Below, in pieces: positions 3,854 to 56,695 of a stretch of 64,000 nucleotides of DNA. How positions within the stretch are numbered: the first letter of the stretch is position 1; every line of letters starts with the position of its first letter. The stretch is from Verrucomicrobiota bacterium. Lineage in GTDB: Bacteria; Verrucomicrobiota; Kiritimatiellia; SS1-B-03-39; UBA6053. The DNA is taken from NCBI GenBank assembly GCA_020831625.1, contig JAFIGD010000001.1:1-64000 (forward strand). Reading direction: 5' to 3'. A model generated the notes under the pieces. That model was not told where the DNA came from. It was given only the letters and a program-made list of their open reading frames with translations, and did no database searches. The position numbers were made by a program, and so were the translations under genes.

Positions 3854-3991
3854 AAAGGACCTTGGGTAAGACATCAACAAATCAGAGACCATCCCCATGA
3901 TGAAATTATCCTGGAATTCAATCAAAAGCGACGAACTTTACCGGGAACACAAAAGCAACGCCGACTTCCGGTCCTCACTCCGCCCTCGAAA

Positions 3992-4100
3992 CACTCGTCA
4001 CTCGTCATTCCCCACTCGTCATTCGTCACTCCACACTCGTCACTCCACACTCGTCATTCCACACTCGTCATTCGTCACTCGTCATTCGTCACTCGTCACT
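3992..4100. repeat. CACTCGTCATTC-type tandem repeat downstream of RAYT 1
   Basis: Roughly ten degenerate copies of a 6-12 base unit (CACTCGTCATTC / GTCACT). The proximal copies supply the last codons and stop of the adjacent minus-strand transposase. Closely similar tracts follow the second RAYT (45470-45575) and the regulator ending at 24417. Confidence 0.88.
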
Positions 4101-5275
4101 CTCAAGGCTTCCATCCCCAGCCAGCCCTTCCCCGGCAGCTTCCGCCCCGCCGCCTTCCGGTCCTTCCCGAAACTCCCCCGATGCTCCGTCATCAAACGAC
4201 CCAAAAACGCATCCCCGCCAATCGCCACCCCGCGCGAAAACGTCTTCACCCGCTGACGCAGCATCCGCGCCATCGGCACCTCCCCCATCCGCTCCATCTC
4301 CGCCATCACCTCCACCTCGTCAAACCCCTTCCGGTCCCGCATCTTCTTCCGAATCCGGTCCACATCCGCCTTCGATTCCCCCTTCGCATACAGCCAAAGC
4401 CGATACGCCGCCTGCACCTCCCCCCAATCCTTCGGTGCCGCCCGCTGTTTGCGCTCCGCCTCCAACTGAGGACCGATCGCCCGCCAATCCCCCGTCCCCG
4501 GTTTCCCGCCTTCTTTCTTTTGCGCCTCCCGCAACTGCTTCAACCGAACCCCCTCCGCCTTTTGGGGCAAATGCCCCCGGGACAGCCTCACCAGCACGTC
4601 CAGCCCCTTCTGCTCCGTCTTCCCGCCCCCACACGCCGCCGCATAGCCACTCCACCGATACTCCATCGGATCCTCCACCATCCCCGCCCGAATCGGATTC
4701 AAATCAATATACGCCGCCACCGACATCAGCGCCAGCGGCGTCCCCTCCACCACCACACTCCGGTACCGCGCGTCCCAGAACGCCCCCTTGCAGTCATGCG
4801 TCCGGTTATACCACAGCGTATACCCATGCTTCAACACCCGCATAAACTCCGCCAAATCACACATCCGGTCGATCACCTGCGCATCCAGTTTCTTCTGATC
4901 CTCCTCCGGATGCAGCCCGTAAAACGCCTCCCACTCCTTCACCTTATCCTTCGACCAAACCAGCTTCAACCGCCGCACAACCTCATCATGCCCAACCTCT
5001 TCCTTTTCCGGCACCCACAGCAGCAAATGAAAATGATTCGACATCACGCAATACGTCACCACCGAAATCCCCGAAAACTCCGCCCACCGAAACGCCAGTT
5101 CCCTGAACGCCTCCTTCTCTTTCGTCCCCAGTAAAAAATCCTGCCCCCGCACGCGGCTCGTCACATGCACAAAATACCCGCCCTCCTTCGGCAGCACCCG
5201 CTCCCGCTTTTGGACAACCTTCTCCACACAAGGCCACCCCGGCCCCGGAATCTTCGATGACAAAGGAATAATCAT
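4082..5275 (-). CDS. REP-associated tyrosine transposase (RAYT), copy 1
   Basis: A 397-residue single-strand DNA transposase of the Y1/HUH superfamily. RAYTs are domesticated IS200/IS605 relatives thought to disperse REP palindromes. Family marks are YFVHVTSRV near residue 35, the metal-binding HFHLLL (from MSNHFHLLLWVP) near residue 100, and the signature YIDLNPIRAGMVEDP followed by YRWSGYAA near residues 195-215. It is longer than typical RAYTs because of a Lys/Arg-rich C-terminal domain of about 150 residues. A near-identical copy lies at 45544-46722. The two copies share the upstream leader as far as a REP sequence at 5321. The last residues, TSDE, are encoded by the downstream repeat tract. 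Confidence 0.88.
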   Translation of the reverse strand: MIIPLSSKIPGPGWPCVEKVVQKRERVLPKEGGYFVHVTSRVRGQDFLLGTKEKEAFRELAFRWAEFSGISVVTYCVMSNHFHLLLWVPEKEEVGHDEVVRRLKLVWSKDKVKEWEAFYGLHPEEDQKKLDAQVIDRMCDLAEFMRVLKHGYTLWYNRTHDCKGAFWDARYRSVVVEGTPLALMSVAAYIDLNPIRAGMVEDPMEYRWSGYAAACGGGKTEQKGLDVLVRLSRGHLPQKAEGVRLKQLREAQKKEGGKPGTGDWRAIGPQLEAERKQRAAPKDWGEVQAAYRLWLYAKGESKADVDRIRKKMRDRKGFDEVEVMAEMERMGEVPMARMLRQRVKTFSRGVAIGGDAFLGRLMTEHRGSFGKDRKAAGRKLPGKGWLGMEALRVTSDE

Positions 5276-5320: not shown

Positions 5321-5343
5321 TTTAAAATACCTGTTATTTTAAA
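5321..5343. repeat. REP sequence upstream of RAYT 1
   Basis: Nine-base arms TTTAAAATA and TATTTTAAA flank an asymmetric CCTGT centre. The same element precedes RAYT 2 (46768) and forms an inverted pair at 54503-54565. Similarity between the two RAYT loci stops at this element, marking the edge of the duplicated unit. Confidence 0.88.
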
Positions 5344-5399: not shown

Positions 5400-5648
5400 A
5401 TGAAAGAAATGAGAACCACTCTTGATCTTGATCCGACGGTATTGCGTCAGCTGAAAGCCCTCAAAAAACGGGAGAAGAAAACCATCGGGCATCTGGCGAA
5501 CGCTCTCCTGGCGGAGGCTCTGTCCCGACATGAAGCCGCTCCCCGGCCCGAAACTGCCCCCGCTCTGGTTCTGCATTCCCAAAGCATGCGTGCGAAAATT
5601 GATCTTGCCGATAAAGACAGCCTCTGGGAAATTCTGGACAAAACATGA
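5400..5648 (+). CDS. vapB: VapB-like ribbon-helix-helix antitoxin
   Basis: An 82-residue small protein with an N-terminal ribbon-helix-helix DNA-binding region (MRTTLDLDPTVLRQLKAL then KKREKKTIGHLANALLAEAL). The C-terminal tail is presumably the toxin-binding part. By family knowledge it would neutralise the PIN toxin encoded next and repress the operon. Its stop overlaps the toxin start in ATGA (5645-5648), typical of such pairs. The start could be the ATG at 5400 or the in-frame ATG at 5409, which gives the more canonical MRTTLDLD beginning. The upstream 56 bases are AT-rich and begin at the REP element. Confidence 0.8.
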   Translation: MKEMRTTLDLDPTVLRQLKALKKREKKTIGHLANALLAEALSRHEAAPRPETAPALVLHSQSMRAKIDLADKDSLWEILDKT

Positions 5649-6079
5649 GTTATTCCATCGATGCGAATCTTTTGATATACGCCTGCAATGAAAATGCGCC
5701 GGAGCATAAATCGGCTAAACAGTTTTTAGAGGCCTGCGCCGCCGAAATGGATCTTCTCTGCCTGACCTGGCCCGCGCTCTTTGCCTTTGTGAGGATCTCA
5801 ACCCATCCCTCGATTTTCGAAAATCCTCTCACTCCGCAGACCGCCTGGTCAAATGTTGAAAAACTTCTGGCCCTCCCCCGGAGCCTTGTGATTTCTGAAT
5901 CCGAGGGTTTCCCTGAAATATATCGGCAGGCCACTGCGGGAATCGTGGTAAAGGGCAACCTGGTGCCGGATGCCCATATCGCGGCGCTGTTATTGCAGCA
6001 CGGTGTCAGCAGAATGTACACCGCAGACTCGGATTTCAGGAAATTTTCTTTTCTAGAGGTCATCAACCCTTTACGGTAA
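5645..6079 (+). CDS. vapC: VapC-like PIN-domain ribonuclease toxin
   Basis: A 144-residue PIN-domain protein of normal VapC length. The acidic site is visible: Asp in SIDANLL near residue 6, an acidic residue in the middle helix, Asp in VPDAHIAALLL near residue 110, and Asp in TADSDF near residue 127. VapC toxins are Mg2+-dependent RNases that cleave tRNA or rRNA. It overlaps the antitoxin by 4 bases and ends 9 bases before the Fur-family gene. Its codon use is less GC-biased than the neighbouring metabolic genes, compatible with horizontal acquisition. Confidence 0.85.
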   Translation: MSYSIDANLLIYACNENAPEHKSAKQFLEACAAEMDLLCLTWPALFAFVRISTHPSIFENPLTPQTAWSNVEKLLALPRSLVISESEGFPEIYRQATAGIVVKGNLVPDAHIAALLLQHGVSRMYTADSDFRKFSFLEVINPLR

Positions 6080-14153: not shown

Positions 14154-14236
14154 GCGATCAACCCTATCGAAAAACAAATACACTTCAAACGAAAAGACGT
14201 TTGTTTCAAGTTCTCAAATGCAACGGAAATGCGCGG

Positions 14237-17200: not shown

Positions 17201-19372
17201 GTAGGGCAGCGTGCTGTCCTCACCCAGATATGCGGACCCGATGAAAAACACAACCCGGTCAATCCCGTTGTCCGAGGCCGCATTGGCGGCGATCTCGATG
17301 TCACTGCCCACGATGCTCAGCATCCCGGTGGTCGGATAGGTGATGGAAACCGCGGGCGGGGTGAGGCCAACCGGGTCGTCTTGAACAAACGCCGCGTCCG
17401 GAATCCCCGTGGATGCCATGCTGAGCGTGCTCCATTCCAAACTGAGGGCGGGATTTCCGTCACGGTTGAACATCTCCACGCGGATGCGGTGTCTCCCGGC
17501 GTTGAGGGGAATATTTCCTGAAACGGGCGAGGCCAGACTTTTCAGTCCGTCATTCCCGATCAGGAGCATATCACCAATGTAAAGTCGCGATCCATCCCTT
17601 GAACGCAACGTGAACGTGTACACATCATTGGCGGGCACCTCCACATATCCCTCATACACAAACGCGAAATTACTGTTCCGGTTGCGAGGTTCCAAACTCA
17701 AATTCCCCACGGTTCCCTGTTTGACCGGCAGTAGGTTCTCCCAGTTCGGAAGCTGGTTATACACGCCCTCGTAGTAGGTGTAACGGAGGCCGGAAAGGGT
17801 CTGCGCGGGATTTTCCGGAGCCCGGAACGGCACATCGCCGACATTCACCCACATCTGCGCCGTGGCGGTGCCGCCTTTCATGTCCGAGACCGTCACGCTC
17901 ACCAAATACACCCCGGCGGTGTCCCAGGTTTTGGTCTGCGTGCCGCTGTTGACAATGTTGTAGGTGTCGTCGCCGAAATCCCAGTCAAAGGCCAGGGTGT
18001 CGCCGTCCGGATCGGAGGCCGTCACGGTGAGTTCGTAGGGCACACCCGGCTGCACCCCGGTGAGCAGGGTTTGGGGAAAAGAGGCGACGGGGGGCTGGTT
18101 CGCGCCGATATCGGCGTCATAGTTGATAACAACTTCGATCCACTCGTGGGTCTGACCGTTGACTAAATCGCTGCCGCGCAAAACAGGGGTGATGTGGAAT
18201 CCGTCGGGGTTATTGTTGAGTCCGGCGGGTTCGCTGTAGGTGCGGCCGATTTTGATGGAACTGTCGTTGCGGTCCTGTCCGCCCGGCCGGGAGTTGGGCG
18301 TGGTGTCGAGCCGGTTGGAGCCGTTTGACAGTTTGGCATGCACGGTCACAGCATTGCGGTTGTAGTCGGACCGCCCGAACCCTCCGTCGGTGGCCGGCAC
18401 ATGCCCGAATCCCAAAATGATTTCCCGGTTCCAGTCCCAGGAGGGACTGGGCGGGCTCATGGGGATGCGCAGGGCCCGGACCAGACTTTGCGACTGGCGC
18501 CGGTCGGAATGAACATAATTATATATGCGGTGGGTCCCGCTGTTGGTCACCGCCACCACTTCCCCGCGGCTCTCCTCAAGAAACTTCAGTTGCCGGCGGA
18601 ACATGGGATTAAACATTGTGTTTGCGCTGTTGCCCCCCATCACACACCAGCCGTCCTGATACTCACCGTTTGAACCCGCCGTCGAACGCGGGTGTTCACC
18701 TTCAGGCACATCCCAGGAGTTCGCATGGTATACCCCCCAGTTGTGACCCCATTCGTGCAGCGTGACCCCGCCGGTGAGACTGCTCCCCACCCAGGCGAAA
18801 CGGCCGCCCACATACGCCAAACCGGTAGAGGAGATCATTTTCACGTTCGACATCGGCACCCATCGGTCAAAATTGTTCGGATCCAGACTGCCGCCGTTCC
18901 AAGCCCCCCCCTGATTGCGCACCGCCTGCAGACAGTGCTGTTGCAGCATTCCGAAACTGCCCCGGTAAAAATCCGCGGTTTCCTGCAGATCCAGCACCTG
19001 CGTGACCACCAGCCGGGGGATGTCATGACCGTTGAACCGCTTGGGACCGAACCAGGTCTGATGATAGCTCGCACTGTAGTAGCGCTGCGAGGCGTCGTTG
19101 AGCTGATGGTCTAACGTCGCGAACGCGGGGGGATTGTCCCAAACCGGCGCGTCTTTGGGGCGAACCAGTATGACCAAGACCGTCTTCGGCCCCTTTTGAT
19201 GAGAGGTGTTTCGGGAATCCCAACTTGGATACTCATTATCCACCCAATGGTGATACACCTCGGTCGGCGGGGTCAGTTGCGTCGGCGGACTGGCCGGATT
19301 AAAGGTTAAAGGCTGAGCTGAAACCGTTGACAGCAGACTGAACAACACGAGGGCAATCGAACCTATTTTCAT
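14237..19372 (-). CDS. Very large secreted multidomain metalloprotease (PKD, PA14, Ig-like, FN3)
   Basis: 1711 residues with a signal peptide (residues 1-19, cleavage after VSA). The catalytic zinc motif HEWGHNWGVYH is at residues 206-216, with a Met-turn-like DGWCVMGG about 30 residues on, as in metzincin/gametolysin-type peptidases. Downstream in order: PKD domain (about 425-515), PA14 (525-670), a Big-like domain (675-765), a beta-rich region (775-985), Ig-like (995-1075), FN3 (1080-1170), Ig-like (1180-1255), a lectin-like region (1260-1500), Ig-like (1500-1575), and a C-terminal domain with WGLDPTNPDQVF (1590-1711). It probably acts on glycoproteins or matrix outside the cell. GGAG precedes the ATG. 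It is divergent from a XylR-type regulator; its C-terminal domain recurs at 20833. Confidence 0.82.
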   Translation of the reverse strand: MKIGSIALVLFSLLSTVSAQPLTFNPASPPTQLTPPTEVYHHWVDNEYPSWDSRNTSHQKGPKTVLVILVRPKDAPVWDNPPAFATLDHQLNDASQRYYSASYHQTWFGPKRFNGHDIPRLVVTQVLDLQETADFYRGSFGMLQQHCLQAVRNQGGAWNGGSLDPNNFDRWVPMSNVKMISSTGLAYVGGRFAWVGSSLTGGVTLHEWGHNWGVYHANSWDVPEGEHPRSTAGSNGEYQDGWCVMGGNSANTMFNPMFRRQLKFLEESRGEVVAVTNSGTHRIYNYVHSDRRQSQSLVRALRIPMSPPSPSWDWNREIILGFGHVPATDGGFGRSDYNRNAVTVHAKLSNGSNRLDTTPNSRPGGQDRNDSSIKIGRTYSEPAGLNNNPDGFHITPVLRGSDLVNGQTHEWIEVVINYDADIGANQPPVASFPQTLLTGVQPGVPYELTVTASDPDGDTLAFDWDFGDDTYNIVNSGTQTKTWDTAGVYLVSVTVSDMKGGTATAQMWVNVGDVPFRAPENPAQTLSGLRYTYYEGVYNQLPNWENLLPVKQGTVGNLSLEPRNRNSNFAFVYEGYVEVPANDVYTFTLRSRDGSRLYIGDMLLIGNDGLKSLASPVSGNIPLNAGRHRIRVEMFNRDGNPALSLEWSTLSMASTGIPDAAFVQDDPVGLTPPAVSITYPTTGMLSIVGSDIEIAANAASDNGIDRVVFFIGSAYLGEDSTLPYSLNWTNLPVGSFFITAVAYDALGNFTVSDSVLLDVTSPIQRDSIGINFLGTYGANGSLASTDQAGAFFMQPNWNNAPQGNIGETWDATVNDLKDRDGVVTTTWTRYRSRNHPNHSPSGSTLVDTTTTNGRLMYGGLRVRGDTAGPVVEVGGIPFDHYDIFVYFDHHEGDGRDASPNEYVLIPGGQSPLSSIWGHNSLVAGDGVGDYPNYDTWVGFKESTATGPNSPVDERLGNYLIFRNVSTSMFRLEANNPGSAINAIQIVSTAENPTEPMIYGQPQSLSLPETRTAEFRILYVGFPAPTVNWYKAGAGALGITGDTLVLENISPSDAGDYYAVVTNSEGSDTSNIATLTVTDPPPAAPTGLVAVALGTSEIELTWTDNAADEDAYLIYRSASASGPWALAHTAAADVTEYVDSNLPESTTFYYYVSAVNEKGESNPSNIAEETTLTSPQDVEITLQPVTVGTTVGQSVSLTVEATGYPAPAFQWRKDGVDIPGANAATFILENATLSDHGTYTVLVSNMQSEVASAPAMIVVTEPFPFAVNDLHVINGGTVSENDGTYTMTRSGTDAFQGVVSNFQEVPLLETGDYLELSFTLRSNTSNNSGRSISFGFFHGPNVTGNAQTMVTDLWQGYVHQPGSRSSAGNMSFGLVRQGAGPTGLMDYAGGGTALDGVSHAQNMTGFHQDLPTPVTLRLERINSTQIRLRSVFTTPDGNRSGSGNNNGIIWNFSTVDGVCTVNSTFSVANGPEVFNGFAIATRGNWVLQVNSISTNVDLASPPLITAQPQSQTVYATQSATLSVTATGEDLSYQWFKNEVLLGGATAASLVFDPVAESDAGDYQVVVSNAGGDVPSVVAVLTVRPEDYSSNDADVPDLWAEVYFEEGGEIPLTVDKGGVQVPLRTVYIWGLDPTNPDQVFEVITPQVNGGGMTLTGINTVPGRRYRLQFTDNLTDPDAWTDLGDEVDGNGGTLDFTDPDPGNHRVYRVRVRKP

Positions 19373-19424
19373 ATAAGCGTCTCCAAAGAAAACATGTGGC
19401 CGCAGGTGACGGCGTGACCGGGTC

Positions 19425-19436
19425 TGATAGTTATCA
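19425..19436. promoter_or_regulatory. Candidate operator in the divergent protease/regulator region
   Basis: A perfect 12-base palindrome, TGATA-GT-TATCA, lies in the 93-base gap between the metalloprotease start (19372) and the regulator start (19466). Its position fits autoregulation or control of both genes. Short palindromes arise by chance, so the call is tentative. Confidence 0.3.
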
Positions 19437-19465
19437 TATCGTTATTTTACCCGCATGGAGATCGC

Positions 19466-20683
19466 ATGTGTATGTCCCGAACCGTAAAAAAAGTTGCGTT
19501 GAATCGTTATTTAAGATTAACGGGAATCATGGAACCTTATTTCACGCTGTATTCCCGGAGCAATGTGCTGGACCTTATCAACCGCCGCATTGCCGAGGGG
19601 GTCTTTGAGTCGGCGGAGCGGCGGCAGTGTCCCTACATGATCGAACTCCGGAATGTGATGGGAGATGACAATCTTTGTGCGGGGGTGATCGGATTGTTCT
19701 GGTCGCAGGACGATCTTCCCGCCGAAAGAGAGCCGTATCTTCCCGCAGTCAACCTTTCCAACACGCCCGGTGCGATTCCGGGCATGGGAAATGTTCTCAG
19801 TGATGACGTGGAGGTCGGACGCATGGCCGCCCGGCATTTGCAGGAACGCGGCGGGACGCGTTTTCTCGGCCTGGGGGCGAGTCGTACCCAATACAGCAGG
19901 GAAAGACTGGCCGGATTCCAGGCGCAACTGCGGGAAAAAGGACTGGACTGTCAAACACGCGAACTGGAGTCCCATAAACCCTACAGTGAATGGAGTCCCC
20001 ACCATTATCAGGAATTCATCTGGGAGCAGGTGAGCGATCTCATCCTGAGTCTGCCCATGGACACCGGAATTTTTGTGGTGTCCGACTGGCTGGCCTGGCC
20101 CGTTCTCCGCTCCATCGAACGCCATGATCCCGCCCGCCTGCAAACTCTGGGGGTTCTGGGGGTGGACAACCTTCACGGCGGCCGCTTTGACCCCCGCAAA
20201 ACCATGCGGCTTTCCTCCATTCTGCCCGGATTCAGACAGTCCGGCCGCATGGCGCTGGAGCTGCTCATGGACCATGTGTTTGACGGAAAAGATCTCGACG
20301 TCGTCCTCCGGTCCCCGCCGGAGACGCTGATTACCCGGGCCTCCACCGCCGGTCCCGCCTGTGCCGATCCGATTCTCGCCAAAATTCAGCGCGAAATCTG
20401 GCTGCGGATCCGAAATCAGGAACCCGTGATCCTCGGCGACCTGGCCCGGCAAAACGGAATGAGTCCCAGCACCTTTGAAAAAAAATTCCGGGCCACCATG
20501 GATAAGTCCGCACGCGAAACGGTCACCGACATGCGGATCGACTACGCCAAAACGCTGCTGCGGGAAAAGAAACACCCCATCGGGGAGATCTGTTACCTCT
20601 GCGGCTACGCCAACCCCGCCTCCTTCTCCAACGCCTTCAAAGGCGTCACCGGTCTCCCGCCCAGGGAGTGGCAGCGGGGGTAG
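19466..20683 (+). CDS. XylR-type regulator (LacI-like sensor plus AraC HTH), 1
   Basis: A 405-residue one-component regulator. Residues of about 25-295 resemble the LacI/periplasmic-binding sugar sensor (GVIGLFW, DDVEVGRMAARHLQERG, GVLGVDN). The last 105 residues are an AraC-family double helix-turn-helix (ILGDLARQNGMSPSTFEKKF and IGEICYLCGYANPASFSNAFKG). It would bind a sugar ligand and activate nearby hydrolase genes, here the divergent metalloprotease. The start is uncertain: ATGs at 19466, 19472 and 19529 are all in frame. A 147-base dispersed repeat begins 9 bases after its stop. Confidence 0.86.
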   Translation: MCMSRTVKKVALNRYLRLTGIMEPYFTLYSRSNVLDLINRRIAEGVFESAERRQCPYMIELRNVMGDDNLCAGVIGLFWSQDDLPAEREPYLPAVNLSNTPGAIPGMGNVLSDDVEVGRMAARHLQERGGTRFLGLGASRTQYSRERLAGFQAQLREKGLDCQTRELESHKPYSEWSPHHYQEFIWEQVSDLILSLPMDTGIFVVSDWLAWPVLRSIERHDPARLQTLGVLGVDNLHGGRFDPRKTMRLSSILPGFRQSGRMALELLMDHVFDGKDLDVVLRSPPETLITRASTAGPACADPILAKIQREIWLRIRNQEPVILGDLARQNGMSPSTFEKKFRATMDKSARETVTDMRIDYAKTLLREKKHPIGEICYLCGYANPASFSNAFKGVTGLPPREWQRG

Positions 20684-20691
20684 GCGCTTTT

Positions 20692-20838
20692 GAGTGTGGA
20701 GTGAATGCGCGGCGAAGCCGCTTTGGAGTGCGCGCAGCGAGTGCAACGAAGCTACCGCTTTACCCCTGCGACAATACGAAACGGCCCGACCACCGGCAAA
20801 ACCGCCGCAAAGCGGCAGCTTCGCGAATCTCGCTACGG
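20692..20838. repeat. Dispersed intergenic repeat, copy A
   Basis: About 147 bases that align closely with 24428-24583. It carries several inverted segments: GCGGC-GAA-GCCGC near 20711, and an arm pair around the TTCGCGAA core near 20820. It lies just downstream of a XylR-type regulator, as does copy B. Its end touches the last codons of the broken minus-strand gene. Confidence 0.87.
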
Positions 20839-22024
20839 CCTCCACACCCGCACGCGGTACGCGCGGTGGTTTCCCGGGCTGGGATCCGTGAAATCCAGAA
20901 TACCGCCGGTGCCGTCAACCTCGTCTCCGAGATCGGTCCAGCCGCCGGGATCCGTGAGATCGTCGGTGAACTGCAGTCGGTAGCGGCGGCCGGGGACGGT
21001 GTTGCTGCCGCTGAGGGTCATGCCGCCGCCGTTGAGTTGTAGGCCAATAACCTCGAAGACCTGATCAGGATTCGTCGGGTCGAGCCCCCAGATGTACACC
21101 GTGCGGAGCGCAACCTGTACCCCGCCCTTGTCGACGGTCAGCGGAATTCCCTCCCCGGCCCCAAAGAATTCCGCCGCCCAAAGATCGGGCACGTCGGCAT
21201 CATTACTGGAACACCACATACGCGGGACCGTCCACGGCGTCCGCCGCGGAGGTGGCAAGGGACTCCTCCAGCACACCGTTCCATCCGCCGGTGTCGTCGC
21301 GGATAAATTTGGACTCGCCGTTCACGGTGATCCGCTGGGTGCGCGGCGGGACTTGGCGGGTTCCGGCGAAATAAACATACAGATCATAGAGGTCGTAAAA
21401 ATAACGGTAGGCCCCGAGCGTCTCCTCGGGGACAATGGAGAAAATCATCGAGGTCCAGCCCTGACGGCCGAAATCATTGCCGCCCACGCCCCACTGCGTG
21501 GAACTCTGAGCCGCGTCGAAGGCTCCGCCATACATGGGAATCCGATACTGCTGCGCATAGGTCATGTAATAGTTGCCCTCCTGCGTCCACCCTTTGTTGC
21601 CGTAATGACTCATGTGCATGTTCAGCCGGCTCACCAGCAAATCATAATGCGACTGCCGCGCCCCCTGTTGGTTCAACACCAGCATTTGCAGAAGATTGGA
21701 CCCGTAGCACACCGCCACCCAGTTGGAGGCATAGGGATTGATATCATTGTCGAAACGGAAGCAGTCCCCCTCCCAGTACTCCAGCGAGGACTGGAGTTTC
21801 CCCGCCACGAAACTCCGCTGGGCTGAACTCCATCCGTTATACGCCAGATCATAGGCCACCGCATAGGCCTTGCCCACGTTGGCCCGCTCCAGCCCCTTGC
21901 CGCCCGGGACCGTCACGGCGGTTTGAATTTCGGACAAGCGCTCCGGAGAGATCAGCAGATGCGGAAAGCTCTGGGCAAAAACGGTTGAACCCAGAAAACA
22001 GCAAAACAGAATCAAATACTTCAT
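20833..22024 (-). pseudogene. Broken secreted protein: heparinase-like N-terminus, out-of-frame C-terminal domain
   Basis: The first part (22024 to 21203) encodes 273 residues. It has a signal peptide (MKYLILFCCFLGSTVFAQ) and an alpha/alpha-toroid-like segment resembling heparinase II/III or alginate-lyase N-termini (NWVAVCYGSNLLQ, GWTQEGNYYMTYA). It stops at TAA right where another frame continues as SSNDADVPDLW and runs to 20833. That second part is about 115 residues and nearly identical to the C-terminus of the 1711-residue metalloprotease. Toroid lyases are normally far longer. I infer an internal deletion plus frameshift. A short functional 273-residue protein is the alternative. Confidence 0.62.
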
Positions 22025-22140
22025 CCTATCACCCTACCCGATCCACCCCGATACGTATACCGCACATTTGGACAGGTTCCCCTTGATTCTGGACGCGGCC
22101 TCACGCTCTATTCTCACACCGCACTCCCCACTCCGCACGC

Positions 22141-22173
22141 AAAAAAAAAACCGTTCCCGGCTTTCGCCGGAAA
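22141..22173 (-). terminator. Intrinsic terminator of the PEP-CTERM gene
   Basis: On the minus strand, a CCGGC-GAAA-GCCGG hairpin (extended by flanking A-T pairs with one mismatch) is followed by a run of ten Ts (22141-22150). It lies about 80 bases after the stop at 22254. Confidence 0.85.
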
Positions 22174-22253
22174 CAGGCCTCACATAAAGAAGAGATCAGC
22201 TCAGAGGTCCGGACGTGTCCCGAGCTGTCCTGAGTTGTCCGATCCTCCCACGC

Positions 22254-23093
22254 TCAGGACCGCCGCCGCCGAAACAGCAACAGCGATCCCAGCGCGATCC
22301 CCACCAGCGCAAGAGTGCCGGGCTCGGGGATGGCGGTGACGGTGAATTCAAGCACCTGCATGTTGCGATCTTGGGTCGAATTGATGCGTTCATGGTAAAT
22401 CCCGAACCCGGTGACGTTATCCAGCGTGACCGAACCAAAGGTCAGGGCACTCAAGGCTCCGACAGTGTCTCCCGACGGATTGTTGGCGAACATGGACACG
22501 GGCGTGCCATCCGTGGGGCTGTAAGCGACCCAGCTCAAAGCATTGATGTCTTCAATTTGGATATTCAGCGAGGTGAGATTCGCGATGTACCATTGGGTAT
22601 CTTGTCTGGCCATGAGACTGAAGGTGCCGCCACTGGTTTGAGCATTGACGCGGACCGCAGGCACAGAAGTGGCATCGAAAGCCTCCACCTCCCACCAAAG
22701 GAGATTGGCCGCATAGTTGGATTGACTCGTCGAATTGCTGAGCTGTAAAAAATCACCGTTTGGGGCATTTGCATCCCGCCCTTCGATCCGAGAAAACAGG
22801 CTTGGAGCACTGGTCCCCGTTCTCCAGGAAGACGTGGCCCATCCAAAATCAGGAGAGGCGGGTGCATTATCGTACGTCTGATTCGTGATAATTGCGGTCA
22901 TGTGTGAACGGTAAAGGAAAGTTCCTGCATCACTGTTGATCGTGCCCGCCGGGGTGGAGGTTGTGCTGTTTTGCATACTCACCTGACGATTATTCAAAAT
23001 ATCAAATGCAGGTCCCCAGGAGACCAACACGTCGGCGGACGCGATGCCCAGGCACATGGCGGCGAGAAGCGGTTGAAAAATTTTAATATTCAT
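22254..23093 (-). CDS. PEP-CTERM-anchored exported protein
   Basis: A 279-residue protein with a signal peptide (MNIKIFQPLLAAMCLGIASA). The C-terminal sorting signal is complete: IPEPGTLALVGIALGSLLLF followed by RRRRS. This is the target of exosortase/EpsH-type processing, implying such a system elsewhere in this genome. The middle of the protein is Ser/Thr/Asn-rich and beta-like with no recognised catalytic domain. PEP-CTERM proteins are usually surface or exopolysaccharide associated. It is divergent from a XylR-type regulator at 23281, with a paired 9-base direct repeat between them. Confidence 0.9.
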   Translation of the reverse strand: MNIKIFQPLLAAMCLGIASADVLVSWGPAFDILNNRQVSMQNSTTSTPAGTINSDAGTFLYRSHMTAIITNQTYDNAPASPDFGWATSSWRTGTSAPSLFSRIEGRDANAPNGDFLQLSNSTSQSNYAANLLWWEVEAFDATSVPAVRVNAQTSGGTFSLMARQDTQWYIANLTSLNIQIEDINALSWVAYSPTDGTPVSMFANNPSGDTVGALSALTFGSVTLDNVTGFGIYHERINSTQDRNMQVLEFTVTAIPEPGTLALVGIALGSLLLFRRRRS

Positions 23094-23195
23094 GTGTTAT
23101 GTCTCCGGTTGAATGGTCGTGAATACTTTATTGCGGACTTGAGAATAATTTCAGTGTATTACGGTACTACATTTCTCCCGCCGGGAACACCCAAC

Positions 23196-23225
23196 TTTTA
23201 GACAGAATTATCTTATTTTTAGACA
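23196..23225. promoter_or_regulatory. Candidate AraC-type operator (two direct repeats, 21 bp apart)
   Basis: TTTTAGACA occurs at 23196-23204 and again at 23217-23225 with identical sequence. A 21-base centre-to-centre step places both half-sites on the same DNA face, the spacing known for AraC-family half-sites. It lies between the divergent PEP-CTERM gene and the AraC-HTH regulator. Confidence 0.55.
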
Positions 23226-23280
23226 ACCAACTTCAGGCGTTTCTTGACTCCCTTCCGCTTTTGGGTAAACCGTATCCAGG

Positions 23281-24417
23281 ATGAAATCCTCTGATCAAAG
23301 CTCTCCCCCCCGCCTGCGCCGCATTTTTACGCATGTGATGAGTGATTACGGATTTGGACTGCAATATTTGCGGGGAATGCAGCGGTTTCGGCGCACGCGG
23401 CCGGACTGGCTGTTCGTGCGGGGTCTTCCGGAAGGAGTTCATCTTCAGGAGCCGGAAAGCCTGGAGGGCGCTATCGGCCATTATTCAGATGAAGTCTTGG
23501 AAATCGACCCGCTTCGCGCGGCGGGAATCCGGCATGTCGTGAACAGCTCCAACCGAAACCGGATCGCATCTGTGCATCGGGTGCTCAACGACGAACTGTC
23601 GATTGGCCGCATGGCGGCAACGTATTTTTTGCGCAAGCGGTTCAGGAATTTCGCGGTCATGGAAGTGGAAAAGTGCGGATTTTCGGCATTGCGGGTTCAA
23701 GGCTATGCGGAGGCTCTGGCACATCACGGTATTTCCGAGGTGCACCGTTTTGAGCTGTCGGACTATGAGACCCTGGCCCGGGCAGCGGACCTGTATCCGC
23801 TGGCCTTGTTTGTGGTGACGGATCTCAGAGCGCAGACGGTCATGAACCTTCTGCTCGTGGAGGGCGCGCGCATCCCCCAGGATATCGCGGTGCTGGGGGT
23901 GGATGATGATGAAATCATGGCCCCGTTTTGCGCGGTGCCCCTGTCGTCGGTCCGCATTGACGGAGAGGGAATCGGCTATGCGGCCTGTGAAACGCTGGAA
24001 AAGCTTCTGGCGGGGCGGGAAGCGCCGGAGGAAAAGCTATTCACCCCGCTGGGTGTCGCCGAGCGCCGGTCCACCGAGTTGGTGGCAGTCGCGGACCCCC
24101 TGGTGCGCCGTGCCCAGGCCTATATCGAGGAAAATCTGCTGACACTCGCCGATGTCGTCGAAATCGCAGACGCCCTGCATGTCCACCGCCGCACCCTCGA
24201 CCGCGCCTTCCGCGCCGCCATCGGCATCACTCCCTTCGACTGGCTGACCCAACGCCGGGTCAAACGTGCCGAGCAGCTGCTGCTGGACACCGATTTCACC
24301 ATGGAGGTGATCGCGGAGCGGTCCGGCTTCGTGGAATACGAGCGCATGCTGCGGGGATTCAAAAAGGCGGGGATGCCCACACCATCGCGGGTGAGGAGAA
24401 TAACGAGTGACGAGTGA
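23281..24417 (+). CDS. XylR-type regulator (LacI-like sensor plus AraC HTH), 2
   Basis: A 378-residue protein. The sensor part includes DELSIGRMAATYFLRKRF, FVVTDLRAQTVM and IAVLGVDDDEIM, typical of LacI/GalR-type ligand domains. The final 100 residues form an AraC double HTH (LADVVEIADALHVHRRTLDRAF and MEVIAERSGFVEYERMLRGF). It lacks an N-terminal LacI HTH, so DNA binding is C-terminal as in XylR. It is divergent from the PEP-CTERM gene, its likely target. The last residues, TSDE plus stop, are supplied by the GAGTGACGAATGACGA repeat. Confidence 0.87.
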   Translation: MKSSDQSSPPRLRRIFTHVMSDYGFGLQYLRGMQRFRRTRPDWLFVRGLPEGVHLQEPESLEGAIGHYSDEVLEIDPLRAAGIRHVVNSSNRNRIASVHRVLNDELSIGRMAATYFLRKRFRNFAVMEVEKCGFSALRVQGYAEALAHHGISEVHRFELSDYETLARAADLYPLALFVVTDLRAQTVMNLLLVEGARIPQDIAVLGVDDDEIMAPFCAVPLSSVRIDGEGIGYAACETLEKLLAGREAPEEKLFTPLGVAERRSTELVAVADPLVRRAQAYIEENLLTLADVVEIADALHVHRRTLDRAFRAAIGITPFDWLTQRRVKRAEQLLLDTDFTMEVIAERSGFVEYERMLRGFKKAGMPTPSRVRRITSDE

Positions 24418-24603
24418 CGAATGACGAGAGTGTGGAGTGCGGAGTGAATGCGCGGCGAAGCCGCTTTGGAGTGCGCGCAGCGAGTTGAACGAAGCTGCCG
24501 CTTTACCACCGCCGCAAAACGAAACCGCCCGACCACCGGCAAAACCGCCGCAAAGCGGTAGCTTCGCGAAGCTCGCTACCGCACCAAAGACGCTTCGCGT
24601 CGC
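24405..24603. repeat. Dispersed intergenic repeat, copy B, with GACGAGTGACGA leader
   Basis: It begins with three GAGTGACGA/GAATGACGA units overlapping the regulator's stop codon. It continues from 24428 with the sequence shared with 20692-20838. An inverted pair CGGTAGC/GCTACCG encloses TTCGCGAA near 24557-24582. An extra 20 bases (CGCTTCGCG-type) follow that are not in copy A. Confidence 0.87.
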
Positions 24604-24625
24604 CAATCCACCGCATTCCGCACTC

Positions 24626-24658
24626 AAACAAAACAGGCCTTGGGTTTCCAAGGCCTGT
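24626..24658 (-). terminator. Intrinsic terminator of the nqr operon
   Basis: A perfect 11-bp stem (ACAGGCCTTGG / CCAAGGCCTGT) with a four-base loop lies 27 bases downstream of the nqrF stop. On the minus strand it runs into TTTTGTTTG. Confidence 0.8.
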
Positions 24659-24684
24659 CTTTGAATCCAAACGGAATAAATTCC

Positions 24685-45394: not shown

Positions 45395-45575
45395 CCAAAC
45401 GTCTCACCTCTCACCCACGCGTTCCGCGTGGCAAGCTCTTACCTCTTTTCCTGGCCTCCGAGCTCCTCCTCATTCGTCACTGATCATTCGTCACTCGTCA
45501 CTCCATACACTCGTCACTCGTCTCTCCACACACTCGTCATTCGTCACTCGTCATTCCCCCCACTCGTAACTCTTA
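45395..45575. repeat. Degenerate repeat tract downstream of RAYT 2
   Basis: CTCACCTCTCACCC/CTCTTACCTC units (45399-45450, similar to 129-165) are followed by CACTCGTCATTCGTCACT-type repeats (45470-45575). The end of the transposase gene (TSGGNDE) is encoded within it. The stretch 45288-45395 holds nothing I recognise. Confidence 0.8.
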
Positions 45576-46722
45576 GTGCTTCCATCCCCAACCAGTCCCT
45601 GCCCGGCAACTTCCGCCCCGCCGCATTCCGGTCCTTGCCGAAACTTCCCCGATGCTCTGTCATCAACCGCCCCAAAAACGCATCCCCGCCAATCGCCACC
45701 CCGCGTGAGAATGTCTTCACCCGCTGACGCAGCATCCGCGCCATCGGCACCGCACCCATCCGCTCCATCTCCGCCATCACCTCCACCTCATCAAACCCTT
45801 TCCGATCCCGCATTTTCTTTCGAATCCGGTCCACATTCACTTTTGATTCCCCCTTCGCGTACAGCCAAAGCCGGTACACCGCCTGCACCTCACCCCAATC
45901 CTTCGGCGCCACCCGCTGCCGTGACTCCCGGTCCAGCTTCTCCCCGATTTCCCGCCAGGTCCCCGGCATTTCTTTGTTCAACGTCATCGTCCTCACCCCC
46001 TCCGCCTTCTGTGGCACCACCCCCCGCGCCAGACGCACCAGCATCTCCAGCCCCTCTCGCTCCGTCTTCCCACCCCCGCACGCCGCCGCATAGCCACTCC
46101 ACCGATACTCCATCGGATCCTCCACCATCCCCGCCCGAATCGGATTCAAATCAATATACGCCGCCACCGACATCAGCGCCAGCGGCGTCCCCTCCACCAC
46201 CACACTCCGGTACCGCGCGTCCCAGAACGCCCCCTTGCAGTCATGCGTCCGGTTATACCACAGCGTATACCCATGCTTCAACACCCGCATAAACTCCGCC
46301 AAATCACACATCCGGTCGATCACCTGCGCATCCAGTTTCTTCTGATCCTCCTCCGAATGCAGCCCGTAAAACCCCTCCCACTCCTTCACCTTATCCTTCG
46401 ACCACACCAGCTTCAACCGCCGCACAACCTCCTCATGCCCAATCTCCTCCTTCTCCGGCACCCAAAGCAACAGGTGAAAATGATTCGACATCACACAATA
46501 CGTCACCACCGTAATCCCCGAAAACTCCGCCCACCGGAACGCCAGTTCCCTGAACGCCTCCTTCTCTTTGGTTCCCAGCAAAAAATCCTGCCCCCGCACA
46601 CGACTCGTCACATGCACAAAATATCCGCCCTCTTTCGGCAGCACCCGCTCCCGCTTTTGGACCACTTTCTCCACAAAAGGCCACCCCGGCCCCGGAATCT
46701 TCGATGACAACGGAATAATCAT
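45544..46722 (-). CDS. REP-associated tyrosine transposase (RAYT), copy 2
   Basis: A 392-residue near-duplicate of the protein at 4082-5275, with the same HUH-superfamily marks (YFVHVTSRV, HFHLLL, YIDLNPIRAGMVEDP). Identity is very high over the first 240 and last 130 residues. A segment of roughly 40 residues (after PQKAEGVR, up to APKDWGEVQA) differs in sequence and length. The frame is intact, so both copies may be active. The leader and REP sequence are shared with copy 1. Confidence 0.88.
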   Translation of the reverse strand: MIIPLSSKIPGPGWPFVEKVVQKRERVLPKEGGYFVHVTSRVRGQDFLLGTKEKEAFRELAFRWAEFSGITVVTYCVMSNHFHLLLWVPEKEEIGHEEVVRRLKLVWSKDKVKEWEGFYGLHSEEDQKKLDAQVIDRMCDLAEFMRVLKHGYTLWYNRTHDCKGAFWDARYRSVVVEGTPLALMSVAAYIDLNPIRAGMVEDPMEYRWSGYAAACGGGKTEREGLEMLVRLARGVVPQKAEGVRTMTLNKEMPGTWREIGEKLDRESRQRVAPKDWGEVQAVYRLWLYAKGESKVNVDRIRKKMRDRKGFDEVEVMAEMERMGAVPMARMLRQRVKTFSRGVAIGGDAFLGRLMTEHRGSFGKDRNAAGRKLPGRDWLGMEALRVTSGGNDE

Positions 46723-46767: not shown

Positions 46768-46788
46768 TTTAAAATACCTGTTATTTTA
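46768..46788. repeat. REP sequence upstream of RAYT 2
   Basis: TTTAAAATA-CCTGT-TATTTTA, identical to the core at 5321. The final two arm bases have changed. It lies between the transposase start and the GH43 gene. Confidence 0.87.
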
Positions 46789-46806
46789 GAAAGATTTTCG
46801 CCTGTA

Positions 46807-53154: not shown

Positions 53155-54456
53155 ATGTTTGACGTCCGCGAAAAACCGAAAATGGTCGAGCGGGCCTTTC
53201 TGGTCGGGGTTCACCTCAAAAACGACGCCCCGGCCGAGGCCGAGGACCTCCTGCGGGAACTCCACGAGTTGGTGACCACCCTGGGCATCGGCATTGTCGG
53301 CAGCGCCCTCGTGGATGTCCGCCAGTGGCAGGCCCGTCTGCTCATGGGCAGTGGCAAGGCGGAGGAAATCCTAGAACAGATCCAATCCGCCAATGCGGAC
53401 TGTGTCGTGTTCGACAACGAACTCAGCCCCGCCCAGCAACGCAACTGGGAGGCCTTCACCGGACGCACCGTGATCGACCGCCAGGAAGTGATTCTGGATA
53501 TTTTCGGCGCCCGGGCCCAAACCAAAGAGGCCAAACTTCAGGTCGAACTCGCCCGCATGGAATACAATCTGCCCCGGCTCAAGCGCGCCTGGGGACACCT
53601 GGGCCGTCAGGGCGGCGGCAGCGGAGGGGGAGGCGGCGGAGGAGGCGGCGCGCACCGCGGCGAAGGCGAACAACAGATCGAAATGGACCGCCGCATGGTC
53701 CGCGAACGCATCAGCAGCCTCAAACGCGAACTCACCGATGTGCGCGGACACCGCGCGACCCAGCGCAAAGAACGCAGCCGCATTCCCCTGCCCCACGCCG
53801 CCATCGTCGGATACACCAACGCCGGCAAAAGCTCCCTGCTCAAAGCCCTCACCGGCTCGGAGGTCTACGTGGCCGACAAACTCTTCGCCACCCTCGACAC
53901 CACCACCCGCCGCATCGAACTGCCCAACGGCCGCCCACTGCTCATGACCGACACCGTGGGCTTTGTCCGCCGCCTGCCCCACCGCCTCGTCGAATCCTTC
54001 AAAGCCACCCTCGAAGAGGCCGTCCTCGCCGACTTTCTCGTGCATGTGCTCGACATCAACGCCCCGGAGGTCGAGGCCTTCCACCGCACCACCCTCGAAG
54101 TCCTGCAAGAACTCGGGGCCGACCAGAAACGCATCATCACCGTCTTCAACAAACTCGATGTCCCCGGAGCCGCCGCCGCCCGCGCCGCGGTGCAACTGCA
54201 CCATCCCGATGCCGTCTTCGTCTCCGCGGTCACCGGCGAGGGCCTCGACCGCCTTCAGGAGCGCATGGCCGACCTGCTCGCCGACCAGATCCGCCACCTG
54301 AAACTCATCCTGCCCCACAGCCGCTCCGACCTCGTCGCCCGCCTCCACGAACACGCCCACGTCAACCACTGCGCCTACGAAGACGACGGTGTCCACGTCG
54401 ACGCCACCGTCCCCCGCCGCCTCGCCGACGAACTGACCGCCTGGACCCTCGCCTGA
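53155..54456 (+). CDS. hflX: Ribosome-associated GTPase HflX
   Basis: A 433-residue GTPase that splits stalled 70S ribosomes under stress. The N-terminal HflX domain has LLMGSGKAEEI and VFDNELSPAQQRNWE. The GTPase domain has G1 GYTNAGKSSLL, G2/G3 DTVGFVRRLPH and G4 NKLD. The linker, normally GGGIGTRGPGETQLE-like, is expanded to a glycine tract (GGGSGGGGGGGGGAHRGEGE) near residues 158-178. The start could also be the ATG at 53182 (MVERAFLV). Confidence 0.92.
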   Translation: MFDVREKPKMVERAFLVGVHLKNDAPAEAEDLLRELHELVTTLGIGIVGSALVDVRQWQARLLMGSGKAEEILEQIQSANADCVVFDNELSPAQQRNWEAFTGRTVIDRQEVILDIFGARAQTKEAKLQVELARMEYNLPRLKRAWGHLGRQGGGSGGGGGGGGGAHRGEGEQQIEMDRRMVRERISSLKRELTDVRGHRATQRKERSRIPLPHAAIVGYTNAGKSSLLKALTGSEVYVADKLFATLDTTTRRIELPNGRPLLMTDTVGFVRRLPHRLVESFKATLEEAVLADFLVHVLDINAPEVEAFHRTTLEVLQELGADQKRIITVFNKLDVPGAAAARAAVQLHHPDAVFVSAVTGEGLDRLQERMADLLADQIRHLKLILPHSRSDLVARLHEHAHVNHCAYEDDGVHVDATVPRRLADELTAWTLA

Positions 54457-54502
54457 CATCCCGCCTCCGCCCTGCCCCCACCAAGGTGCACTATCGCGCA
54501 TC

Positions 54503-54565
54503 TTTAAAATACCTGTTATTTTAAGCAATTCCCGCACATTCATTTAAAATAACAGGTATTTTAAA
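54503..54565. repeat. REPIN: two inverted REP sequences
   Basis: Element 1 (54503-54525) has CCTGT in the centre. Element 2 (54543-54565) has ACAGG, so it is the same element reversed. A 17-base gap separates them and centres are 40 bases apart. Both share TTTAAAATA/TATTTTAA arms with the REPs beside the two RAYT genes. It lies in the gap between hflX and the antiporter, far from either transposase. Confidence 0.88.
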
Positions 54566-54624
54566 GAATCTGCGTGCAGATTATACGACGTTGATTTTCC
54601 CAAGCCATCCGATATCACACGGGT

Positions 54625-56652
54625 ATGCAGGACTATGCTTTTCTTCAAGACATGGCGGTGGTGATGGTTGTTGCCGGCCTGGTCACCCTGATTTTCCACC
54701 GCCTCAAACAACCGGTGATTTTGGGCTATCTTCTCGCGGGGCTGATCATCGGCCCGTACACCCCTCCCTTCGCATTCGTCAGCGACGCGGCGGTCATCGA
54801 CACGCTTGCGGATCTCGGCGTTGTGTTTCTGATGTTCTCCCTGGGGATGGACTTCAACTTGCGGAAATTGAAAAAGGTCGGGAAATCCGCTCTGATGGTG
54901 GGGGTTTTTGAAATCCTGATCATGGTGCTCACGGGATACTTTCTGGGTGCCGCTCTGGGATGGGGCAAACCGGACAGCCTGTTCCTGGGCATGATCCTGG
55001 CGCTCACGTCCACCATGATTGTGGTCAAGAACCTGCGCGACCGGGATGAGATTCACACCCCGCACGCGGAAATGATCTCCGGAATCAGTCTTTTTGACGA
55101 TTTGGTTGTCATCATCCTGATGGTGGGGTTGCAGGGATTCTCCAGAACCGGAAGCCTGCCCGCCTCGGAGATGTTCGGCCTGTTGGGCGGGGTATCCGCG
55201 TTTCTGGTGGCGGTCGTGGTGGTGGGGGTTCTTTTTCTTCCGCCGATCCTGCATTACATTGCCCGCAAGGCCAGTGACGAAATGCTGCTGGTCGCCGCTC
55301 TGGGAATCTGTTTCGGAATCTCCCTGTTCGCGGTGAAACTTGGGTTCAGCGCCGCGCTGGGCGCTTTTCTTGCCGGAGCGATTATCGCGGAATCCAGAGA
55401 TGTCGGCCGGGTGTCCGCGCTCACACAACCGCTTCGCGACATGTTTGTCGCCGTGTTTTTTGTCGCGATCGGCATGCAAATCAACCCGGAATTTTTCGCG
55501 GCCGGTCTTGTGCCCGCCCTCGTGATCACGGCGGTGTACATGGTGGTGAAGATCAGCGCCTGCGCCTTGGGCGCCTTCCTCGCGGGCCGGGAGGCCCGGA
55601 CCGCCATGAAAGTGGGCACAAACATGGCGCAGCTCGGCGAATTCGCCTTCCTCCTCGCGGCGTTGGGCGAGCAAATGAACTTCACCAGCCGTTTTCTTTA
55701 TCCGCTGGTTGTCTCGGTCACCTGTCTAAACGCCCTCCTTCGCCCCTATTTGGTGGACAACAGCGACCACTTCACCGCCTGGCTGGGACGCCGGCTTCCG
55801 CGGCCGCTGGTGAACCAGCTCCTGCTTTTCCAGAAACGCCGCAGTCAGCTTCAACTGGAAAATTCCTCCCGGGCGGTCCGCAAGGCGCTCCACAAAGTGA
55901 TTGTTCAGGTCATCCTCACTCTGATCCTTATCGCCGCGGGTTTTCTGTTGTCCGGCGTTCTGCTCCACACCCTCCCCGACTCCATTCACGCTAGACTTTC
56001 CCTGCCCGCCGAATTGCCCGGCATGGTACTCTGGGGCGTCACCGCCCTCCTGCTTCTCCCGCTGTATGTCGGCGGACTTCTCAAAATGAGGGCGCTGTCC
56101 ATGATGCTCTCGGAACTGACGGTCACAGAACGCCGGGACTCTCCCGGACGGCGCACGCGCCGCTCCGCGGTGCAGTCCGTCTACTTCACCCTCCAGTTAA
56201 TCCTGCTGCTCCTGGTCACAGTGCTGTCCAGCGCCGCCATGTTGCCGCCGCGCGACACGGCTTTGATCCTTGTCCTGCTCGTCACCGCGGTCGGCATGTG
56301 GAAGTGGCCCTCCTTCAACCGTTGGTACTCCCAGGGCAAATCCGCTCTCATCACCGCCTTTCAGGAATTCCCGGCACCCGCCCCGTCCATACCCGACCCC
56401 CTGCGCCTGACCGATGCGCATTTGCGCACGGTGCGGGTGCTTCCGGGGCCCGTTGAAGGCAAACTCATCCGCGAACTCGGACTCAGAACCGAAACCGGCG
56501 CCACCATCGTCGCCCTGGACCGCGACGGCAAAAGCCGGGTCAATCCCGGACCCGACATCGAATTGCTCCGCGGCGACCTTCTCCTCCTTTTAGGCACCGA
56601 ATCACAACTCGATGACGCGGAAAAACATCTTGGCAGCGGGCTGAACCCTTGA
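54625..56652 (+). CDS. CPA2-family cation:proton antiporter with TrkA-C-like domain
   Basis: A 675-residue membrane protein. The first 390 residues are a KefB-like Na+/H+ or K+/H+ exchanger core (KQPVILGYLLAGLIIGPYTP, SGISLFDDLVVIILM with the ion-binding Asp pair, GFSAALGAFLAGAIIAES). A linker with two or three more helices follows (about 420-550). The C-terminal part (about 590-670) resembles a TrkA-C/RCK-C regulatory domain (LTDAHLRTVRVLPGP, IELLRGDLLLLLGTE). It would set cytoplasmic pH or K+/Na+, complementing the Na+ pumps in this window. Confidence 0.88.
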   Translation: MQDYAFLQDMAVVMVVAGLVTLIFHRLKQPVILGYLLAGLIIGPYTPPFAFVSDAAVIDTLADLGVVFLMFSLGMDFNLRKLKKVGKSALMVGVFEILIMVLTGYFLGAALGWGKPDSLFLGMILALTSTMIVVKNLRDRDEIHTPHAEMISGISLFDDLVVIILMVGLQGFSRTGSLPASEMFGLLGGVSAFLVAVVVVGVLFLPPILHYIARKASDEMLLVAALGICFGISLFAVKLGFSAALGAFLAGAIIAESRDVGRVSALTQPLRDMFVAVFFVAIGMQINPEFFAAGLVPALVITAVYMVVKISACALGAFLAGREARTAMKVGTNMAQLGEFAFLLAALGEQMNFTSRFLYPLVVSVTCLNALLRPYLVDNSDHFTAWLGRRLPRPLVNQLLLFQKRRSQLQLENSSRAVRKALHKVIVQVILTLILIAAGFLLSGVLLHTLPDSIHARLSLPAELPGMVLWGVTALLLLPLYVGGLLKMRALSMMLSELTVTERRDSPGRRTRRSAVQSVYFTLQLILLLLVTVLSSAAMLPPRDTALILVLLVTAVGMWKWPSFNRWYSQGKSALITAFQEFPAPAPSIPDPLRLTDAHLRTVRVLPGPVEGKLIRELGLRTETGATIVALDRDGKSRVNPGPDIELLRGDLLLLLGTESQLDDAEKHLGSGLNP

Positions 56653-56695
56653 AAACTGATTTACAAACCCCCGGATCCCCCATATGGGTGGGCGC

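Follow-up and report, generated by a model that had tools for sequence, protein, structure and literature searches.

An Inverted Hairpin Doublet in a Kiritimatiellia Genome Is Probably a Pair of Solo Left Ends from a Multi-Copy, IS-Like RAYT Element

The stretch of DNA analyzed here (64,000 nucleotides, hereafter the window) lies within contig 15 of the 4.9-Mb genome of a Verrucomicrobiota bacterium of the class Kiritimatiellia, assembled into 111 contigs (G000). Two identical 21-bp palindromes, each with the structure TTAAAATA-ACAGG-TATTTTAA and inverted to each other, are located at 54503-54567, flanked by hflX on one side and a gene encoding a Na+/H+ antiporter on the other (Table 1). The doublet reads ...GCATCT TTAAAATACCTGTTATTTTAA gcaattcccgcacattcat TTAAAATAACAGGTATTTTAA AGAATC..., its feet point outward in the style of a REPIN, and as single-stranded DNA it is predicted to fold as a whole with −20.2 kcal/mol (z = −10.8). 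When the hairpin was searched for as a 22-mer with up to three mismatches, it was found in the 64-kb window at the doublet, at tnpA copy 1 (5321) and at tnpA copy 2 (46768), and nowhere else, with 0.00 matches expected in a shuffled window. The preliminary description of this locus, in which two inverted hairpins between hflX and the antiporter gene were said to match the hairpin flanking the RAYT genes, is therefore borne out by the motif search. An intrinsic terminator is not favored as the identity of the hairpin, because its stem consists entirely of A-T pairs.

Table 1. Coordinates of the hairpins, transposase genes and adjoining features in the window.
Feature	Position	Strand	Remarks
tnpA copy 1	4082..5275	-	397-aa Y1/HUH transposase, RAYT-like (NHFH, YIDLNP)
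GAGTGACGAATGACGAG array	3970..4105	-	joined to 3' end of tnpA copy 1; repeat also dispersed without tnpA
Left-end hairpin, tnpA copy 1	5322..5342	-	DNA beyond (higher coordinates) unrelated to other copies
tnpA copy 2	45544..46722	-	392-aa Y1/HUH transposase
GAGTGACGAATGACGAG-type array	45465..45570	-	joined to 3' end of tnpA copy 2
Left-end hairpin, tnpA copy 2	46769..46789	-	one mismatch; 18 bp from stop codon of neighboring GH43 gene
hflX	53155-54456	+	one flank of doublet
Doublet arm 1	54504..54524	-	ACAGG loop on - strand; foot TCT/AGA, hflX side; agrees with local GC skew
Doublet arm 2	54544..54564	+	ACAGG loop on + strand, then AGA; opposes local GC skew
Na+/H+ antiporter	54625-56652	+	other flank of doublet; Pfam

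The two tnpA products match Pfam Y1_Tnp (PF01797; E = 3e-9 and 2e-9 for copies 1 and 2, respectively) and share 89% identity over 395 amino acids, and each gene has one hairpin upstream and zero downstream. The HUH motif and the Y-x-x-x-NP tyrosine motif that characterize TnpA_REP/RAYT class 2 are present, as NHFH and YIDLNP, in the window proteins and throughout the family, and 23 of 24 family proteins have a HuH-Y spacing of 106 amino acids, together with Y[IV]DLNP and a long C-terminal domain. These features are shared with subclass 2.3 of Quentin et al. (2018; PMC6006769), which likewise has an NH-hydrophobic-H HUH motif, Y-x-x-x-NP (there YVDLNP), a median HuH-Y spacing of 110, a long C-terminal domain and several copies per genome, whereas the protein is longer here (~395 amino acids, against a median of 325 in subclass 2.3) and its copies are 91–98% identical. 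With the NCBIfam RAYT model NF047646, the window proteins scored 49.1 and 49.7 bits, below the cut-off of 80, and they are at best remote members of that equivalog. The C-terminal domain gave no significant match in Pfam; a PDB profile search placed the Y1 transposases 2xm3, 2xo6 and 2xma on top, although weakly (E ~0.1), and an AlphaFold model built from five sequences had a pLDDT of 41. In a phylogenetic tree, the family tnpA were separate from the class-level tnpA, save for one misread long-branch row. In terms of its sequence, TnpA is thus best described as a long, subclass-2.3-like RAYT, subclass 2.3 being the best fit within the published scheme (PMC6006769). Adjoining the left end of tnpA copy 1 at 5402-6079 are a small DNA-binding-like ORF and a PIN-domain toxin-like gene, which form a probable toxin-antitoxin pair.

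Across the genome, about 25 matches to the hairpin were found (up to three mismatches), mostly intergenic singlets, and most of the solo hairpins whose surroundings were read lie between genes or at the ends of genes. The tnpA subfamily is represented by three complete copies and by fragments cut at contig ends (four 5' ends and four 3' ends), that is, by 7–11 near-identical copies at which the assembly is broken. The preliminary description regarded two transposases and one doublet as a complete small system; these counts hold for the window, but the genome contains at least seven tnpA and over a dozen solo hairpins. TnpA is of the RAYT class by its motifs, yet it departs from the low-copy, diverged and housekeeping-like profile of domesticated class 2 genes as well as from the canonical REP tag. 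More distant tnpA lineages also occur in G000, for example on contigs 65 and 28, where the diverged tnpA (L201 and L202, respectively) follow CAACAGGTG motifs, in one case twice, with other stems.

Alignment of about 14 tnpA copies from G000 and its sister genome G002 revealed conservation from the hairpin into tnpA and unrelated DNA directly 5' of the hairpin. Since homology stops exactly at the hairpin in these copies, the hairpin marks the left border. Solo copies have in common the hairpin and the AGA on its tnpA-ward side and then diverge, which gives a solo unit of 24 nt, TTAAAATAACAGGTATTTTAAAGA. The foot is TCT/AGA rather than the canonical GT[AG]G (GTAG/GTGG) of REPs, and the hairpin lies only on the upstream side of tnpA. 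A right-end hairpin was sought around the tnpA copies and none was found. The G002 copies diverge right after the LRV codons and take their stop codon from the flanking DNA, and the right end of the element is therefore tentatively placed after these codons. In G000, the tnpA 3' ends run into GAGTGACGAATGACGAG arrays, which are also found at many places without tnpA. These minisatellite arrays adjoin every tnpA 3' end seen in G000 and occupy dozens of places in that genome (contigs 17, 42, 43, 72, 31, 88, and others), and fewer in G001; a second dispersed minisatellite, GATTACGATTAAGATTAAG (L220, 4600-4707), has dozens of sites in G001 and is found downstream of some G000 tnpA. Terminal inverted repeats, the hallmark of TIRYT/TIRtron elements, were not found around the window tnpA copies. 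By contrast, class-level tnpA relatives have terminal inverted repeats AGGGACAGG...CCTGTCCCT that match the TIRtrons of PMC3733652; TIRtrons with AGGGACAGG-type repeats were seen at loci L182-L200 of G052, G096, G041 and G014, and G040 has 24 tnpA matches. The ACAGG core that they have in common suggests that the hairpin and the TIR may be homologous.

Among 97 genomes, the window-type hairpin is abundant only in G000 and G002, the latter with tnpA of the same subfamily at roughly 74–86% identity, whereas there were two matches in G003, one in G009 and none in the other 93. Elsewhere in the family, every tnpA is accompanied by its own version of the hairpin; the ACAGG loop is constant, whereas the AT-rich stem varies and often contains a single mismatch three pairs away from the loop, as in CCAATAATGCA-ACAGG-TGAATTATTGG. 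In 24 hairpins, 35 compensatory cells were counted in the stem vs. 21.8 ± 3.1 after shuffling (0 of 500 shuffles), and the pairing collapsed once the partner strand was slid. A covariance model built from the family hairpins detected them in each of the nine family genomes that have this tnpA family. It gave no match in the two family genomes lacking it (G005 and G006), nor in any of 28 genomes from outside the family. An upstream hairpin was found at 25 of 25 family tnpA loci, although this count is partly circular as most model rows come from these loci, while a downstream hairpin was absent from the 25 loci except for strong copies at L047. At the latter locus, in the complete genome G008, two inverted hairpins lie downstream of tnpA (2944-2974 and 3047-3077), and a cluster of three hairpins occurs near 850 kb of contig C1 of the same genome, away from any full-length tnpA match. 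These comparisons indicate that the hairpin is cognate to this tnpA family. They also uphold the earlier proposal that the hairpins match a RAYT-type transposase and recur in the genome, and the check suggested with it, namely whether the hairpin occurs elsewhere in the genome and is rarer without this RAYT, came out in its favor (~25 in G000; 0 of 2 and 0 of 28 without this tnpA).

The orientation of these elements follows replication, as far as GC skew, which serves here as a proxy for fork direction, can tell. In G008, in which the skew minimum is not at dnaA, all ten tnpA are concordant with skew, with six on the + strand of the positive-skew arc and four on the - strand of the negative-skew arc, while ORFs are split about evenly over both strands. 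In G000, G002 and six further draft genomes, 47 of the 53 hairpins whose local skew was clear (1.6 kb masked on each side) are concordant, compared with 51–56% of the ORFs in the same windows. Combined, 57 of 63 hairpins or tnpA are concordant vs. 396 of 754 ORFs (52%; Fisher p = 4e-10), although a few of the 63 sites may be orthologous between genomes; when the doublet, three putative orthologs and a degenerate copy were left out, 52 of 57 remained concordant (p = 3e-10). The bias holds for solo hairpins alone (19/21, p = 3e-4) and for tnpA alone (33/36, p = 5e-7). The orientation of IS200/IS605 elements is known to follow replication, as they are excised from and inserted into the lagging-strand template (PMC5371812), whereas no report of such a bias in RAYTs or REPs was found in the literature examined. 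The present bias is thus the signature of IS200/IS605-type single-strand transposition, and multiple copies and a precise end, demonstrated here for the left end, are likewise as in these elements.

The evidence on insertion and REARRANGEMENT comes from comparing site flanks with those of G002 and other relatives. At one solo site (C36:41894), G002 is collinear but lacks the hairpin, with a net difference of roughly 40 bp. Collinearity ends at five of the six solos tested, three solos sitting 10–24 bp from the end of homology, and it also ends at the window doublet, tnpA copy 2, the C59 copy and the C201 copy of G002. By comparison, about 3 of 10 comparable hairpin-free junctions were breakpoints (p ~0.02, a hand estimate from a small and informal control), and a location of the hairpins at rearrangement breakpoints is a lead rather than a result. 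For tnpA copy 2 and the C59 and C201 copies, no clean empty site was identified, and their flanks are apart in the relatives. A hairpin-only empty site was considered for the doublet, where hflX and the next gene are 38 bp apart in G002; however, the whole 2.2-kb antiporter segment is gone there, and this is therefore a segment difference and not a clean hairpin insertion. Two segments are missing from the otherwise collinear G002:C435, 45320-52645 (7.3 kb, with tnpA copy 2 and the GH43 gene) and 54457-56678 (2.2 kb, with the doublet and the antiporter gene), each with a hairpin or tnpA near one edge, and 14154-24674 of the window (10.5 kb) is absent from G002:C442, with no hairpin at its edges.

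Taken together, we consider it probable that both arms of the doublet are solo copies of a left-end hairpin belonging to a multi-copy, IS-like RAYT element, and that TnpA moves both the element and the solos. In this model, TnpA would bind the ACAGG hairpin in single-stranded form on the lagging-strand template, cut at the foot of the hairpin and just after AGA, and join the cut strand to another exposed single strand; the same reaction would spread the tnpA-bearing element, whereas short or one-ended events would spread the 24-nt solo. The inverted doublet could have arisen from two opposite insertions, or from one copy that was duplicated and inverted, and would not be a replicating REPIN. 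In favor of this model are the numbers of hairpins (~25) and of near-identical tnpA copies (7–11), the exact left border in about 14 copies, the compensatory stem with its constant loop, the co-occurrence in nine of nine genomes, the upstream hairpin at 25 of 25 family tnpA loci, the 57 of 63 concordant orientations and the one empty solo site. Against it, no right-end hairpin was found, nor was any site seen to be cleanly empty of a complete tnpA element; in addition, one doublet arm opposes the bias, and most hairpin sites lie at collinearity ends, which implies that rearrangement contributes. The element has apparently been mobile recently. The sequence supports recognition, strand bias and exact left borders, whereas we infer the cleavage, the intermediate and any current activity.

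The preliminary description had instead called the doublet a REPIN, which a RAYT mobilizes in trans. In a true REPIN/RAYT system, a domesticated RAYT would mobilize inverted doublets in trans and the singlets would be decayed doublets. The cognate relationship of the hairpin to a RAYT-like tnpA and the strong fold of the inverted doublet with its outward feet fit this picture, but the arrangement of the hairpins does not. In P. fluorescens, 61% of REPs are in doublets, 93% of the doublets are inverted, and the REPIN is the common and better conserved replicative unit (PMC3116915). Here, no inverted close pair other than the window doublet was seen in G000-G003, G008 and G009, and the doublet has no second copy in G000; the remaining close pairs, about 15, are direct tandems (start-to-start ~28–110 bp), and the other dispersed copies are mostly exact singlets. 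With one inverted doublet and ~15 direct tandems there is therefore no REPIN population, which speaks against the REPIN as the unit and leaves the window doublet as an incidental REPIN-like structure with no REPIN family behind it. Further, tnpA is itself multi-copy and nearly identical and the hairpin lacks a GTAG-type foot, and this explanation is unlikely. Nor did the idea of a RAYT acting solely in trans hold up, since the copy number, the strand bias and the left ends that stop sharply against unrelated DNA point to a self-moving, IS-like element.

Alternatively, the hairpin might be a regulatory site of tnpA (an operator or transcript structure), with the solos being sites of the same regulator and tnpA multiplied by recombination or duplication rather than by its own transposition. 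The hairpin is indeed directly upstream of tnpA, in several relatives near a -35-like TTGACA, and the collinearity breaks at most sites are in line with recombination; however, the solos are near-exact 24-mers between unrelated DNA, one is absent from an otherwise collinear sister locus, they too are oriented with replication (19/21), and duplication would carry DNA beyond the hairpin whereas the left border is exact, all of which makes such a role improbable. The hairpins might also be left over from other mobile DNA, or be sites into which tnpA elements preferentially insert, instead of element ends. ISs that insert into REPs do exist (ISPpu9; PMC8450116), and no right-end hairpin was seen, but insertion into an existing hairpin would usually give hairpin sequence on both sides and predicts hairpins kept in genomes without tnpA, neither of which was seen, and the hairpin sequence tracks the tnpA lineage; we regard this possibility as very unlikely.

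The IS-like element favored here can be compared with three known systems. As in the REPIN/RAYT system of P. fluorescens (PMC3116915), short extragenic palindromes are cognate to a RAYT and the inverted window doublet has outward feet, but singlets and direct tandems dominate, a GTAG/GTGG foot is lacking, tnpA is multi-copy, and there are ~25 hairpins instead of hundreds. As in IS200/IS605 elements (IS608, ISDra2; PMC5371812), a Y1 HUH transposase, an end hairpin, multiple copies and a replication-following orientation are found. However, the Y-x-x-x-Q motif and short core protein of these elements are replaced by YIDLNP in a protein of ~395 amino acids with a large C-terminal domain, no tnpB was seen, solo ends are dispersed, and, except at L047, a hairpin occurs at the upstream end only and not at both ends. 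The element thus works like IS200/IS605 without being a member, given its Y-x-x-x-NP motif and the left hairpin as the only one found. With TIRYT/TIRtrons (PMC3733652), it has in common the ACAGG core, located here in the hairpin loop, and the TIRs of its class-level relatives fit the GGGGWSAS type; unlike in TIRtrons, the left end of the window element is self-complementary and the right end has no inverted copy.

A RAYT/REP host is already known in the PVC group, Opitutus terrae (PMC3733652). Subclass 2.3 was reported from Chromatiales and Alteromonadales, neither it nor subclass 2.1 with REP-like sequences, and there was no evidence of mobility for class 2 RAYT genes (PMC6006769). New here, therefore, would be a cognate hairpin of a 2.3-like RAYT and a strand bias of the IS200/IS605 type, from which we infer activity. 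It is about an even chance that this class 2 RAYT transposase belongs to an autonomous, recently active IS that uses the lagging-strand template, disperses its solo left-end hairpins as REP singlets and sits at rearrangement junctions. RAYTs are usually seen as tamed and non-mobile, whereas here a 2.3-like RAYT is accompanied by a cognate hairpin, near-identical copies, exact left borders and strand bias. The common ACAGG core links the hairpin family to the TIRtron repeats of the same class and suggests a route by which a TIR could give rise to a REP. In these PVC-group bacteria, a RAYT-type element still seems to spread via single-stranded DNA at the replication fork and, if this is true, it would be a living link that stands between mobile elements (IS200/IS605 or TIRtrons) and REP/RAYT systems that have been domesticated.
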